Below the pieces are notes generated by a model that did not search any database, had not been told where the DNA came from, and was given only the letters and a program-made list of their open reading frames with translations. Below are positions 10,473 through 16,923 of a stretch of DNA of 64,000 nucleotides, piece by piece (the stretch's first letter is position 1; each line of letters starts with the position of its first letter). The translations under genes were made by a program, and so were the position numbers. Origin of the DNA: Pusillimonas sp. TS35 (GTDB lineage Bacteria; Pseudomonadota; Gammaproteobacteria; Burkholderiales; Burkholderiaceae_B). The DNA lies in NCBI RefSeq assembly GCF_009857885.1, contig NZ_WWER01000011.1, positions 1-64,000 on the forward strand, written 5' to 3'.

Positions 10473-11780
10473 GGGTGTTGCGGCGCGCACCCCAGCGGCT
10501 GGCGCGCCGCCCTCTTCCTGCGGCGTTACAAACGACACGTCAGACGCAACATCCACGCGCGGATCCAGGTTGGCAACCACGTTGGAACTCTGCAGGCTGT
10601 CGGACATTGGCACGAAATGCGTGGGGGCATCCTGGCTCAGGTTCGCCCCCGTCACCTTCCTTGGGCGCACGAACAATACCAGCACCAGCGAGCAGGCAGA
10701 CAGGAAAACAAAGTACATCGACGTACCCAGAAGCCGCATCATCAAGCCTGCGATCAGCGGCCCTACACAGGCGCCCACGCCGTACACCATATACAGAATG
10801 GCACTAAGGCCAACACGTCGATCAGGATCAACGTTGTCGTTGGCAAAGGCGGCGCCCAGCGGGTACAGCGTGAACTGCAGCGCCCCCATTACGCACGAGA
10901 ACACGACCAGTGCCCAATACGGAAACTGCCACCACCCCCACAAGGGCACCACGGCCAGCATCAGTACGACAGCATTCACGCGTATCATGCCTGCACGATT
11001 CAGGCGGTCGGCCAACCAGCCCAGCGGCCACTGCGCAAGCAAGCCCGCCGCCACGCTCGCAGCCAGGAATACAGCCACTTGACTGTTATCCAGCCCTTGC
11101 CGCAACGCGTATACAGGCGCCAGCCCATAGAACGCACCAGTGAGCACCCCTGCAACGAACAGCACCAGCAGCGAGAGCGGCACGCGCGCAACGTAATAAC
11201 GCGCATGGATAGGCGCAGGCACTTGCAGCGCGGGGTGCAGCCGGCGCGTCAGGGCGACAGGGATCAGGCATAGCGCCGACACCATCGCCGCGAAAATCAG
11301 CGGCTGATAATTGAGCTCGGGAAACAGCGTCAGTGACAGCTGTCCCAGTACGGTGCCGCAACTCGAACACACCATGTAGAACGCAAACACGCGCCCTCGT
11401 TGTGCGTTTTCCGTCTGCTCGTTGAGCCAGCTTTCCAGCACCACGAACTGCGTCACCATTGCAATCCCGGCCAGAAAACGGAAACCCAGCCAGATCCAGA
11501 GGTTGTCCACCAGCGCCAGCACAAGCACAGTCACGGTGACGACAGCGGCCATGGCCGAATACGCACGGATGTGGCCCACCCGCATAATCACCTTGTGGCC
11601 AATACGCGCCCCGAACACCAGGCCCAGGTAATACACCGCAATCAGCCCGCCCACCCATAGCTCGGAAACATTAGCCGCCGTGAGCCGCAGGCTCATATAG
11701 GTATTGAACAGCCCCGAACCCACCAACAACAACAGCGTTGCCAGGTACAGAGAAAAAAAAGCGGCAATTGCTTGCACCAT
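10362..11780 (-). CDS. MFS transporter (YcaD-like)
   Basis: A major facilitator superfamily protein of about 472 residues with 12 predicted membrane helices. After the first helices it has the loop GARIGHKVIMRVGHIRAY, and the middle carries RFLAGIAMVTQFVVLESWLNEQ, seen in the YcaD/UPF0226-type subgroup. The last ~85 residues after VRPRKVTG are hydrophilic and unrelated to the transporter fold, and their final 36 codons lie antisense to the end of the EamA gene. The ATG at 11780 is preferred over a TTG at 11798. The substrate is unknown. Confidence 0.85.
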   Translation of the reverse strand: MVQAIAAFFSLYLATLLLLVGSGLFNTYMSLRLTAANVSELWVGGLIAVYYLGLVFGARIGHKVIMRVGHIRAYSAMAAVVTVTVLVLALVDNLWIWLGFRFLAGIAMVTQFVVLESWLNEQTENAQRGRVFAFYMVCSSCGTVLGQLSLTLFPELNYQPLIFAAMVSALCLIPVALTRRLHPALQVPAPIHARYYVARVPLSLLVLFVAGVLTGAFYGLAPVYALRQGLDNSQVAVFLAASVAAGLLAQWPLGWLADRLNRAGMIRVNAVVLMLAVVPLWGWWQFPYWALVVFSCVMGALQFTLYPLGAAFANDNVDPDRRVGLSAILYMVYGVGACVGPLIAGLMMRLLGTSMYFVFLSACSLVLVLFVRPRKVTGANLSQDAPTHFVPMSDSLQSSNVVANLDPRVDVASDVSFVTPQEEGGAPAAGVRAATPSAGDECNNGADGEGNAGDIEQGEPLTEKPRADQGAG

Positions 11781-12462: not shown

Positions 12463-12786
12463 GCTAAAAAACAGGCCCATCCGCAGCAGCGCTTGGGCGC
12501 TACGCATCAGGCATACCCGGGAGGTCGCGGCACACCGCAGCCGCACCGCCAACCGCCCGGCACCTGTAATCATACGACGCACGCGCAGGCCCTGCAGGCG
12601 GAGTGTCGTCCCGGACACGCCGCCGAAGACACAACAGACGATACGCGCGCCGATCCGCCACACTGCGACCGCCAGCACCCCGCATTGCGTATATCATAGG
12701 CGCCATCGGTGGCCGCGATGCCGCGCCGCCCGCCATCACCATCCACAAAACTCCGCCGCGTAAGGCACCCGCCCGCGCCTCTGCAA

Positions 12787-13332
12787 ATGACTAAACGCAA
12801 TCACCCCGCTGCGCCTGCCACTAGCGCCACACCTGACGAAACGCCGCGCCTGACGCATCTGGACGAAACCGGCAAAGCCACCATGGTCGATGTCGGCCAC
12901 AAAGCGTCCACCCAACGCACCGCTATTGCCCAGGGCCGCGTGCGCCTGGGCCCACAGGCCTTCGCACTGCTGTCGGCCGGCAACAACGCCAAAGGCGAAG
13001 TGCTGGGCACCGCACGCATCGCCGGCGTGCTGGCCGCCAAGCGTTGTGCCGAACTCATCCCGCTGTGCCACAGCCTGCCGCTCAGTTTCGTGGGCATAGA
13101 CTTCGACACCGACCCGGATGCTCGCACCATCACCGTGATCGCCACCTGCCGTACAGACTACAAGACAGGGGTCGAAATGGAAGCAATGACCGCCTGCAGC
13201 GTCGCCGCGCTCACTATCTACGACATGTGCAAGGCGGCCGATAAAGGCATCGTCATCGAGCAGGTTCGGCTATGCTACAAGTCCGGCGGCAAGAGCGGCG
13301 AATGGCATGCCGCGCCCGAAACAGCTGGCTGA
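12787..13332 (+). CDS. moaC: cyclic pyranopterin monophosphate synthase MoaC
   Basis: Second enzyme of molybdenum cofactor synthesis: converts 3',8-cyclo-GTP to cyclic pyranopterin monophosphate. The 181-residue protein has the full family core: THLDETGKATMVDVGHK, LIPLCHSLPLSFVGIDF and TDYKTGVEMEAMTACSVAALTIYDM, with the catalytic Lys and Asp in the last segments (MCKAADKG). The ATG at 12787 fits family length. The next gene starts directly after its stop codon. Confidence 0.96.
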   Translation: MTKRNHPAAPATSATPDETPRLTHLDETGKATMVDVGHKASTQRTAIAQGRVRLGPQAFALLSAGNNAKGEVLGTARIAGVLAAKRCAELIPLCHSLPLSFVGIDFDTDPDARTITVIATCRTDYKTGVEMEAMTACSVAALTIYDMCKAADKGIVIEQVRLCYKSGGKSGEWHAAPETAG

Positions 13333-14049
13333 ATGCCCCACGTGCTCGCAGCCGGCGGCCTGGGGATGGCGCTGGGGTTGGCCAGTGGCGGCCTGGCCGC
13401 TCACTACACACATGCCATCGCCGGCGGCCAGCATCCTGATGCCGCCACCTTGCTGCATGCGCTCGCACGCGCCGGCCGGCGCGTGCCCGGCGCGGGTGGC
13501 AGCCATCTAGCGGGTGCCGCCGTACTGGCGATTGCCTGCATGGCAGCGTGGCTGGCATATGGCTGGTCGCCCCGCTTTGGCATAGTCACCACCATGGCAT
13601 TCCTGCTTTGCTGCCTGGCGCTGATCGACGCTCGTACAGGGTTGCTGCCAGACGCCCTCAACATACCCCTGTTGCTACTTGGCCTGGCGGCGGCACCCGC
13701 CATCGGGCTTGTGGCCAACACCGCCGCAGCGCTGCTTGGCGCCCTGGCGGGCTACCTGATGCCGTGGCTGCTTGCCCGTGCTTACCAGGCCATGCGCGGC
13801 ACCGAAGGTATGGGGAGGGGAGACTTCAAGCTGGCTGCAGCGCTGGGTGCATGGTGCGGCCTTGCCGCTCTGCCCACCGTGCTATTGCTTGCAAGCATCG
13901 GGGGGGTCGCCTTCGCGATGGTGCATCAGCGTACGCTGCGCCCATGCGGTGCCTACCCCTTTGGGCCTTTCCTGGCGGCTGCCGGCCTGATTGTCCTGCT
14001 GGCGCCGGAAGCAGGCATAGTAAGCGCTGCTCTGGACTCGACGCACTAG
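13333..14049 (+). CDS. minimal A24 prepilin peptidase-like protein
   Basis: A 238-residue polytopic membrane protein with the aspartyl prepilin peptidase domain (PF01478). The two catalytic Asp are in CCLALIDARTGLLPD and EGMGRGDFKLAAALG, and YPFGPFLA closes the domain. The N-terminal methyltransferase module with its cysteine motif is absent, replaced by about 75 weakly conserved residues. It would cleave type IV pilin-like leader peptides at the inner membrane but probably not methylate them. No pilus genes are nearby. It starts immediately after moaC, inside the molybdenum cofactor cluster. Confidence 0.8.
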   Translation: MPHVLAAGGLGMALGLASGGLAAHYTHAIAGGQHPDAATLLHALARAGRRVPGAGGSHLAGAAVLAIACMAAWLAYGWSPRFGIVTTMAFLLCCLALIDARTGLLPDALNIPLLLLGLAAAPAIGLVANTAAALLGALAGYLMPWLLARAYQAMRGTEGMGRGDFKLAAALGAWCGLAALPTVLLLASIGGVAFAMVHQRTLRPCGAYPFGPFLAAAGLIVLLAPEAGIVSAALDSTH

Positions 14050-14109
14050 CATCCGCTCCATTACCCAAGGCCGCCATCGACCGCGCGGCCGCCCGCCCTC
14101 GCCTTTCGC

Positions 14110-14123
14110 GGGGGGGGGGGGGG
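14110..14123 (+). repeat. 14-nt poly-G tract
   Basis: An uninterrupted run of 14 G lies between the prepilin peptidase and moaD. It sits about 60 nt upstream of moaD and roughly 30 nt before a possible -10 (TACAAT at 14155-14160). Such runs are prone to slipped-strand length change. Confidence 0.9.
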
Positions 14124-14183
14124 CGGGCACCGTGCCACACTGCGGCATACCCGCTACAATGAACTAAAGAGAATGCCATAGAG

Positions 14184-14447
14184 ATGGAGGCTGGCGTGGC
14201 ACATTCCTGCATAAACGTTCTGTATTTTGCCCAAGTGGCCGAACTGGCCGGGCTCAGGCAAGAAAGCCTGCCGCTGGCCGCTCCCATTAGCGGTGCCGAA
14301 TGGCTGACCCAACTCGAAGGCCGTTACCCTGCGCTTGCACCCACCGCGCGGCTCAAATTGGCGATCAATCAGCAACATTCGCCGCATCAGGCCATCATAC
14401 AGCCCGGCGACGAGGTTGCCGTCTTCGAACCCGTGACGGGCGGCTGA
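14184..14447 (+). CDS. moaD: molybdopterin synthase small subunit MoaD
   Basis: Ubiquitin-like sulfur carrier that provides the dithiolene sulfur of molybdopterin together with MoaE. The 87-residue protein ends in the required Gly-Gly (FEPVTGG), which is adenylated and thiocarboxylated by MoeB. INVLYFAQVAELAG is the typical first strand. The ATG at 14184 gives 12 extra nt. A GTG at 14196 has GGAGG at 14186-14190 with 5-nt spacing and gives the more usual N-terminus. moaE follows after 34 nt. Confidence 0.93.
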   Translation: MEAGVAHSCINVLYFAQVAELAGLRQESLPLAAPISGAEWLTQLEGRYPALAPTARLKLAINQQHSPHQAIIQPGDEVAVFEPVTGG

Positions 14448-14481
14448 CGCTGGCCGTCACCGTCAAGCTCGGATATCAACC

Positions 14482-15078
14482 ATGACCACCACCCTCCCCC
14501 TGAATGGCGCTGCCGCATCGAACACGACGACGGCACACCCGCAAACGTACCCAGCAGATACCTCTGGCGCAGCCAGCCCGGTGAACGACACGCGGCCGCA
14601 GGCCTCCAGCATTTGGGTACAGGAGCAGGATTTCGACAGCGCCGCCTTGGTGGCGGGCATGCGCCAGCGCACCGCCGGCCGTGCGGGTGCGCTGGTCAGT
14701 TTTACCGGATATGTGCGGGATTACACGCCCGACACCCCCACACACACCCTGTTTCTTGAGCACTACCCCGGCATGTGCGAACGCGAACTGCACGCGCTGT
14801 GCGCCACCGCGCGAGCGCGCTGGGACGTACAAGACTGCCTGATCGTGCATCGGGTGGGTGAGCTGCACAACACCGACCAGATCGTTTTCGTAGCCGTCGC
14901 CAGCGCTCACCGCGGCGATGCCTTCCGCGCCTGCGAGTTCATCATCGACGCCCTGAAGACACGCGCGCCGTTCTGGAAGCGTGAAGCGCTCGCGAATGGC
15001 GAGCGCTTCTGGGTGCAACAGCGCGAGTCGGATGCGGACAAGACCAATGCATGGGAATCCGGTGCCGCGCCGCCCTGA
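14482..15078 (+). CDS. moaE: molybdopterin synthase large subunit MoaE
   Basis: Catalytic subunit that converts cyclic pyranopterin monophosphate to molybdopterin with two MoaD sulfurs. The core runs from about residue 44 (IWVQEQDFDSAALVAGM) through GALVSFTGYVRD, LFLEHYPGMCERE, VHRVGELHNTDQIVFV and the catalytic KTRAPFWKREAL. At 198 residues it is longer than usual, with a low-complexity N-terminal extension of ~43 residues rich in Thr, Ala and Ser. The real start may lie inside it. Confidence 0.94.
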   Translation: MTTTLPLNGAAASNTTTAHPQTYPADTSGAASPVNDTRPQASSIWVQEQDFDSAALVAGMRQRTAGRAGALVSFTGYVRDYTPDTPTHTLFLEHYPGMCERELHALCATARARWDVQDCLIVHRVGELHNTDQIVFVAVASAHRGDAFRACEFIIDALKTRAPFWKREALANGERFWVQQRESDADKTNAWESGAAPP

Positions 15079-15138
15079 ATCCCCACGCAGCGCCAACGCA
15101 TCTGTCATCGGTAACCTCACTATATCGAACCCTCTCTC

Positions 15139-15657
15139 ATGAGCAAAGCGACCCCAGGGCAAGCCACCCTGCCCCTGAACTGTGCAGTCATCACCATCTC
15201 CGACACCCGCGAAGCCACCAACGATACATCAGGCGACTACCTGGCCGAAAGCCTGCTGGCCGCTGGCCATCGTTGTGTACAACGGGTGATCTGCAAGAGC
15301 AGCCTGTACGAAATCCGCAAGCACATGAGCGACTGGATTCTCGACGCCGGCATTCAAGTCATCCTGGCCAACGGCGGCACCGGCTACTCGCACCGCAAAT
15401 CCACGGCAGCGGCTGTCACACCGCTGCTCGACCAGACAATTACCGGCTTCGGTGAATTGTTCCGTTATCTGTCTTACAAAGATATCGGCAGCTCGATGCT
15501 GCAATCCGATGCCTTTGCCGGCATCGCCAACAATACCCTTATCTTCTGCCTACCCGGCTCCACCAAGGCGTGCCAGACCGCATGGGAAGGCATCCTGCGC
15601 GAACAACTCGACAGCACTCACCGCCCCTGCAATTTCGGAGCTTCGTTCCATGCTTGA
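15139..15657 (+). CDS. moaB: molybdenum cofactor biosynthesis protein MoaB/Mog-like
   Basis: A 172-residue MoaB/MogA-fold protein that adenylates molybdopterin before metal insertion. Visible motifs are AVITISDTREATNDTSGDYL, the nucleotide/pterin loop LANGGTGYSHRKST and FGELFRYLSYKDIGSSML, plus LPGSTKACQTAWE. It overlaps moeA by 8 nt and follows moaE by 60 nt, completing the late steps of the pathway. Confidence 0.93.
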   Translation: MSKATPGQATLPLNCAVITISDTREATNDTSGDYLAESLLAAGHRCVQRVICKSSLYEIRKHMSDWILDAGIQVILANGGTGYSHRKSTAAAVTPLLDQTITGFGELFRYLSYKDIGSSMLQSDAFAGIANNTLIFCLPGSTKACQTAWEGILREQLDSTHRPCNFGASFHA

Positions 15658-16855
15658 TTTCGACGACGCGCAGCAGCGCCTGGCCGCCGCTGGCGGCGTG
15701 CCCACCATCACCGAAAGCTGTCCGCTTTCCCAGGCGAGCGGCCGCGTGCTGGCGCAAACATTATTCGCCACGCTAGATCTCCCGCCCGCCGACAACAGCG
15801 CCATGGACGGCTATGCAATCCGCCATGCCGATTACGCACCCGGCCGGGCGCTGCCGATACAGCAACGCTGCTTTGCGGGCGAAAAGCCACAGGCGCTGGT
15901 AGCGGGCCAAGCAATCCGCCTCTTTACCGGTAGCTTGATTCCCGAAGGTGCCGATACGGTGGTCATGCAGGAAGACGCGGAGGAAGCCGACAACGCCGTT
16001 ACCCTCACTCTCGCCCCCACGCTTGGCACGCACGTAAGACGGCGTGGCGAAGATGTGGCCCAGGGCAAGCAGCTACTGGCGCGCGGCACACTGCTGCGCG
16101 CGGCTGAACTGGCCTTGCTGGCCTCGCAAGGCTACGCCGAGGTGCCGGTCTTTGCCCGCCTGAAAATCGGCCTGCTGACCACCGGCGACGAGCTTGTCGC
16201 GCCAGGCACGCCACGTGACGAAGCACAGATATTCAACTCCAACAGCCCCATGCTGGCGGCGCTGGCCGCAGGCCTGGGCGCGCAGGTCGTGCATACCCTG
16301 CACGCGGCGGATACCGCATCCGCCCTGGATGATGCCTTCCAGACGCTGCTGCGCGATTGCGATCTCATCCTGACGGTGGGCGGCGTATCCGTGGGCGAAA
16401 AAGACTTGGTCAAGCCCACCATCGAACAACTGGGGGGTACGCTGGACATGTGGCGTGTACGCATGAAGCCGGGCAAGCCCGTTGCCTTCGCACGCATACA
16501 GGGCAAGCCCGTGGTGTGCCTGCCTGGCAACCCGGTATCGGCCTTCGCCGTGTTTACCCTGCTAGTGACACCCCTGGTGCGAGCCATGCAAGGCCGCGCC
16601 GATACCCTGCCCCCGGTTGGGTTCGGCACGCTCGCGACATCTCAAGTGTTCCAGGAAAAGCGCGACGATTTTTTGCGGGTGCGTGCCGAACCCCGGGCTG
16701 ATGGGCTGCCGCAGCTTGTGCCCTATGCGCAGCAGGGTTCGGGCATCATCAGCGCTTTGCCGTGGGCCAGCGGCCTGGCTCGCGTCCCGGCTGGCGCAAG
16801 CACCGGCAATGGCGCCGTGCTGCGGTACTACGACCTGGCACACTGGCTGGCATAA
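15650..16855 (+). CDS. moeA: molybdopterin molybdenumtransferase MoeA
   Basis: Inserts molybdate into adenylated molybdopterin. The 401-residue protein shows the MoeA order: N-terminal MLDFDDAQQRL and LPPADNSAMDGYAI, the MoeA-N domain with FTGSLIPEGADTVVMQED, the MogA-like domain with LTVGGVSVGEKD and MKPGKPVAFARIQGKPVVCLPGNP, then a C-terminal beta domain. The start at 15650 lies inside the end of moaB and has CGGAG upstream; a longer frame upstream only covers moaB out of frame. It ends convergently, 68 nt from rsmA. Confidence 0.95.
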   Translation: MLDFDDAQQRLAAAGGVPTITESCPLSQASGRVLAQTLFATLDLPPADNSAMDGYAIRHADYAPGRALPIQQRCFAGEKPQALVAGQAIRLFTGSLIPEGADTVVMQEDAEEADNAVTLTLAPTLGTHVRRRGEDVAQGKQLLARGTLLRAAELALLASQGYAEVPVFARLKIGLLTTGDELVAPGTPRDEAQIFNSNSPMLAALAAGLGAQVVHTLHAADTASALDDAFQTLLRDCDLILTVGGVSVGEKDLVKPTIEQLGGTLDMWRVRMKPGKPVAFARIQGKPVVCLPGNPVSAFAVFTLLVTPLVRAMQGRADTLPPVGFGTLATSQVFQEKRDDFLRVRAEPRADGLPQLVPYAQQGSGIISALPWASGLARVPAGASTGNGAVLRYYDLAHWLA

Positions 16856-16923
16856 CCCCGCAGCGCGCCCACGCGCCGCACGGTATGCCGCCAAGCATTC
16901 TCGGCGCTGCGCAGCACATGCGC

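Follow-up and report, generated by a model that had tools for sequence, protein, structure and literature searches.

Most descriptions of phase variation concern surface structures and the regulators of these. Among the closest described systems are the Bordetella fimbrial genes, whose tracts measure C10-15 at fim2 and C13-18 at fim3 (PMC1891110), and at fim3 the length of the C-tract sets the -35/-10 distance of a BvgA-dependent promoter (PMC10172299). The Bordetella bhuR gene has an 8-nt A/T tract located 5 nt upstream of the -35 element, which PMC1891110 judges very likely to influence transcription; the same paper describes it as equal in length across the three species with a genome sequence and saw no polymorphism in the strains that were tested. 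In Helicobacter pylori, the T-tract next to the -35 element of sabA was shown to act as a rheostat, its length tuning RNA polymerase binding (PMC4081817), and in Neisseria the length of the nadA promoter repeat alters the spacing of regulatory sites (PMC2791445). Searches of open-licence papers that combined phase variation with moaD or the molybdenum cofactor returned no account of homopolymers or phase variation acting on these genes, and in the passages of PMC12817950 that were consulted moaD occurs just in a remark on a deletion.

The tract considered here lies in a 64-kb stretch of DNA that was analyzed as a whole (hereafter, the window). It comprises exactly 14 G in the assembly sequence (14110-14123, + strand) and is directly followed on its 3' side by CGGGC. 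The distances given by an earlier interpretation made from the letters alone (the sequence-only reading) were borne out: 31 nt (14124-14154) separate the tract from a TACAAT hexamer (14155-14160), and 60 nt (14124-14183) separate it from the ATG at 14184, or 72 nt if moaD starts at GTG 14196.

The same reading had likened the tract to the Bordetella fimbrial loci, and the likeness holds in part. Both are long G/C homopolymers of similar length ahead of a gene, and both are from Alcaligenaceae bacteria, but the geometry differs: the fim tract lies between -35 and -10, whereas G14 is found upstream of a candidate -35 and precedes a gene of cofactor synthesis. Assuming the predicted promoter is correct, the fim-type arrangement, in which the tract sets the -35/-10 distance, is absent here. 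By analogy, the geometry of G14 appears closer to bhuR and sabA. The bhuR tract is likewise a homopolymer a few nucleotides upstream of -35 (5 in bhuR, 8 here), but is A/T, short, of the same length across species and non-polymorphic. The sabA tract is also adjacent to -35, but is a T-tract with A-box UP-like elements upstream, and its variation and effect were shown experimentally. With nadA the locus shares a simple repeat in a promoter region; nadA differs in its dependence on the NadR repressor, whose operators lie on either side of the repeat, and no such regulator is known here.

Rarity of the tract in its own genome

To place the tract in its genomic context, we profiled homopolymer runs in the window and in the whole assembly. 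The window contains no other G run of at least 8, and G14 is also its longest run of any base. A search for 12 G across the 4,101,330-base assembly returned the tract as the sole match, and the assembly holds three G/C runs of at least 9 (overlapping matches merged), with lengths of 14, 9 and 9. Under independent draws at the composition of the window, about 0.4 G/C runs of at least 14 would be expected per genome, and composition alone does not exclude one such run. The window has 349, 85, 14 and 3 G/C runs of at least 4, 5, 6 and 7 bases (G14 included), a drop of about four- to six-fold for each added base. G14 stands out from what is usual in the window, because the real run-length distribution declines faster than independent draws. 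The tract is a homopolymer longer than expected, as is looked for in phase-variable tracts of the promoter type.

A dispersed repeat carrying the tract was considered and rejected, the best match of 14040-14200 elsewhere in the genome being 26 nt long with an E value of 0.025. Searching plasmid records with 12700-16900 gave no megablast match.

The moa cluster and a candidate promoter beside the tract

The genes around the tract are all encoded on the + strand in the order moaC, prepilin peptidase, moaD, moaE, moaB and moeA. The moaC ORF (12709-13332), whose real start is probably downstream of 12709, is above the TIGR00581 cut-off on 12808-13329. The prepilin peptidase gene (Peptidase_A24; 13333-14049) lies between moaC and moaD and matches Pfam PF01478 with an E value of 6.9e-21, with no NCBIfam match. 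The moaD gene (14196-14447, the ORF being also open from ATG 14184) is above the cut-off of PF02597 (ThiS) and scores 60.5 bits on TIGR01682, under the cut-off of 66.15. Downstream, moaE (14482-15078) matches PF02391 and scores 150.9 bits on NF007959, under the cut-off of 175; moaB (15139-15657) is above the TIGR02667 cut-off; and the moeA ORF (15452-16855), whose real start is probably further in, scores 331.7 bits on NF007960, under the cut-off of 440. By ORF coordinates, the gap between the peptidase stop (14049) and moaD is the widest between adjacent genes of this run.

Translation of moaD more likely begins at GTG 14196 than at ATG 14184, because two genus mates (G001 and G004) start at a homologous GTGGCC in a by-eye comparison; a GGAGG is found at 14186-14190, with a spacing of 5 nt to this GTG. 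The genome has two further ThiS-family matches besides moaD. The first, a 73-aa ORF, neighbours a ThiG-like ORF, and we take the pair to be ThiS and ThiG by recognition instead of family search; the other is a partial match (profile positions 40-71) in a 762-aa frame. MoaD thus appears to be single-copy, and a real effect of the tract on moaD would therefore be broad.

The position of the tract does not support translational phase variation by frameshift: the peptidase frame ends at 14049, with 60 nt still to go to the tract, and a stop at 14160-14162 closes the moaD frame upstream, leaving it open from 14163. The ORFs that do cross the tract (13548-14162 on the + strand, 13826-14287 and 13882-14148 on the - strand) all share sequence with the peptidase gene and are presumed to be shadow frames.

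At the promoter level, one sigma70-like site, GTGCCA-17-TACAAT with a 9/12 consensus match, was predicted in 13900-14300 on both strands (50 shuffles gave a mean of 0.1). This candidate promoter (14132-14160, + strand; -35 at 14132-14137, -10 at 14155-14160) is the sole sigma70-like site between the peptidase gene and moaD. The TACAAT that the sequence-only reading had proposed as a possible -10 belongs to it, and where that reading would have given way had 14050-14184 held no promoter, one plausible predicted site is present. The same rule matches 16 of 875 half-overlapping 146-nt tiles of the window's + strand; when the peptidase-moaD gap was shuffled by mononucleotides, 14 of 5000 shuffled sequences had a match. 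We regard the site as a plausible, unproven internal promoter for moaD-moaE-moaB-moeA. G14 ends 8 nt short of the candidate -35, which leaves it outside the predicted core promoter, and would span roughly -57 to -44 if transcription starts near 14167, as the predicted site would have it.

One explanation of this arrangement is a phase-variable or rheostat promoter, in which slippage would alter how far from the core promoter, or on which face of the helix, upstream contacts (alpha-CTD or an unknown regulator) are made, so that moaD-moaE-moaB-moeA would be tuned differently from cell to cell. The position 8 nt from the candidate -35 and the apparent single copy of MoaD speak for it, as do a length within the range that varies at fim2 and fim3 and the sabA and nadA precedents. 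We nevertheless consider it unlikely: no upstream element was seen by eye, the DNA upstream of the tract is GC-rich, unlike the sabA A-boxes, and the target is a cofactor-synthesis gene, no surface antigen.

The tract could also act in the RNA. It is part of an imperfect GC-rich inverted repeat (14091-14128, + strand) with arms at 14091-14103 and 14116-14128 that are 85% complementary. The right arm consists of the end of the G-tract plus CGGGC, and the tract pairs with GCCCGCC just upstream. A 60-nt piece folds into a hairpin of -38.0 kcal/mol, or -51.7 kcal/mol with G-quadruplexes allowed, both being values without a shuffle comparison. Such a hairpin or G-quadruplex, in transcripts reading through from moaC and the peptidase gene, might pause polymerase or shape processing, so that tract length would tune the reading of the downstream operon. 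We think this very doubtful, as the 151-nt region is only modestly more stable than its shuffles (z -1.91, with 10 of 200 as good), no T-run follows the right arm, 13900-14300 has no terminator-like site and 13800-14500 has no Rfam match up to E 1. The last two results also led us to reject an intrinsic terminator of the peptidase gene and a known RNA element, respectively.

The moaD locus in relatives

To find whether the tract is shared with relatives, we searched 61 genomes for moaD and obtained a match in 51, own genome included. From the 50 other genomes with a match, 29 moaD loci were examined with up to 1.5 kb on each side, one of them (L031) extending just 51 nt upstream of its moaD match. 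The longest G/C run was 5 or 6 in all 29 loci, and none had a run longer than 6.

The genus set comprises five genomes, namely our own and G001 to G004. The order moaC-peptidase-moaD is common to the window, G001 and G004, with a peptidase-moaD gap of about 100 nt in the latter two versus 146 nt in the window. The gaps of G001 and G004 have neither the G14 tract nor the GC-rich DNA surrounding it, and their MAFFT alignment to the window showed two large window-only insertions at the tract region. In G002 and G003, moaC and the peptidase gene are together, 23 to 24 kb from moaD. As a separate observation, the G002 match contains one in-frame TAA.

The promoter rule that identified the candidate site gave no sites in the peptidase-moaD gaps of G001 and G004. 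By eye, the window TACAAT can be set in register with a TAGAAT in both genomes, but MAFFT paired it with TTCGAT and AACGAT and placed the relatives' TAGAAT further downstream. A conserved promoter is therefore no more than a possibility, MAFFT preferring a register in which the hexamer is not kept.

The absence of the tract in the relatives examined and the lack of a rule-matching promoter in G001 and G004 weigh against a rheostat, and the absence of the GC-rich structure in these two genomes weighs against an RNA-level effect. As judged from the loci examined, the tract would not qualify as a conserved regulatory feature of moa loci, which should recur at the same site in relatives, and the comparison goes against an old, maintained switch.

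Long G/C runs in the genus and family

We then considered how often long G/C runs occur in related genomes. The five genus genomes contain 31, 11, 5, 2, 2 and 1 G/C runs of at least 9, 10, 11, 12, 13 and 14 bases (overlapping matches merged, the 30 runs besides G14 read a second time): 20 are 9 bases long, six are 10 and three are 11, and the two longest measure 13 and 14. The tail of this distribution is fairly even, with G14 as its end point. In the family, a G/C run of at least 13 was detected in 58 of 268 genomes (own and G001 included). We examined 30 places with such a run out of these 58 genomes, one per genome among the matches listed, taking about 1.5 kb on each side, and compared them by tblastn with the window's MoaC, A24, MoaD, MoaE, MoaB and MoeA. 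The window's own locus was the single one matched (1/30), so recurrent tracts at moa genes were rejected. Long tracts arise now and then in the family, and these 30 places give no indication that they form preferentially at moa genes.

Part of the family's long G/C runs is doubtful. At four of the 30 places (L154, L161, L162 and L170) a contig end is no more than 60 nt away, and two (L160 and L166) have N near the run. The runs L161 (G091) and L162 (G093) stand beside what looks like sequencing-adaptor sequence, and the poly-C/G at these contig ends is probably a sequencing artefact of the kind that inflates homopolymer counts in draft genomes. The genome studied here is itself a 25-contig draft, which raises the question of whether the G14 tract, or its length, is an artefact of sequencing or assembly. 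This is highly improbable, given that the tract is interior to a 69 kb contig, that the DNA around it is not duplicated elsewhere in the genome, and that G001 and G004 independently show the peptidase gene next to moaD. The recurrence of this adjacency also led us to reject an artefactual join of two unrelated ends.

We favor, with a probability of roughly 0.65, a recent and lineage-specific tract that grew by slippage, is probably unstable, and has at most a modest effect on moaD without being a maintained on/off switch. Replication slippage would have expanded a G run in the GC-rich and weakly constrained intergenic stretch that separates the peptidase gene from moaD. The length of the tract, from which alone we infer instability, would then probably keep changing, and such changes would shift just the DNA upstream of the core promoter, with at most a modest effect on moaD. 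We prefer this reading because G001 and G004 lack both the tract and the additional DNA flanking it, because none of the 29 other moaD loci has a G/C run above 6, because long G/C runs occur elsewhere in the family with 1 of 30 places near moa genes, and because the genus tail is fairly even and the tract is outside the candidate core promoter.

Several points stand against it. The length of 14 is well beyond the genome's next runs (9 and 9), and G14 adjoins the one promoter-like site of the gap, a position that would suit a regulatory tract. At such a distance a tract can matter, as the work on bhuR (PMC1891110) and sabA (PMC4081817) indicates.

Phase variation of moaD is possible. A stronger proposal is that the tract is a young contingency locus on a central cofactor pathway, in which slippage at G14 would tune the moaD-moeA part and the activity of molybdopterin enzymes would differ between cells of one population; we consider this rather improbable. 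Molybdopterin enzymes in general function in nitrate respiration or in the oxidation of aldehydes and sulfite. If the proposal were true, a cofactor operon tuned by a homopolymer would make an entire class of metabolic enzymes vary from cell to cell. At present G14 is no more than a candidate for such tuning, though one that is cheap to test.

Several other repeats were noticed. In G001 (C22), a C13 tract (L106:11389-11401) lies between a TATACT hexamer and a gene start at 11423, and the gene looks lipoprotein-like; from its layout, this region seems closer to a phase-variable 5' region than the moaD tract is. In G118, a further genome of the family, another C13 tract (L165:1501-1513) is found 26 nt before an ATG, in a fim-like layout. 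Tandem arrays of 33-35 bp units overlap the end of moaE in G004 (L009:2205-2408, 5.7 copies) and in G001 (L106:1-266, 7.7 copies, the contig starting inside the array); no such array was found in the window. In G004, moeA comes directly after, leaving no space for moaB between moaE and moeA. The copy number of the arrays in G001 and G004 could vary.
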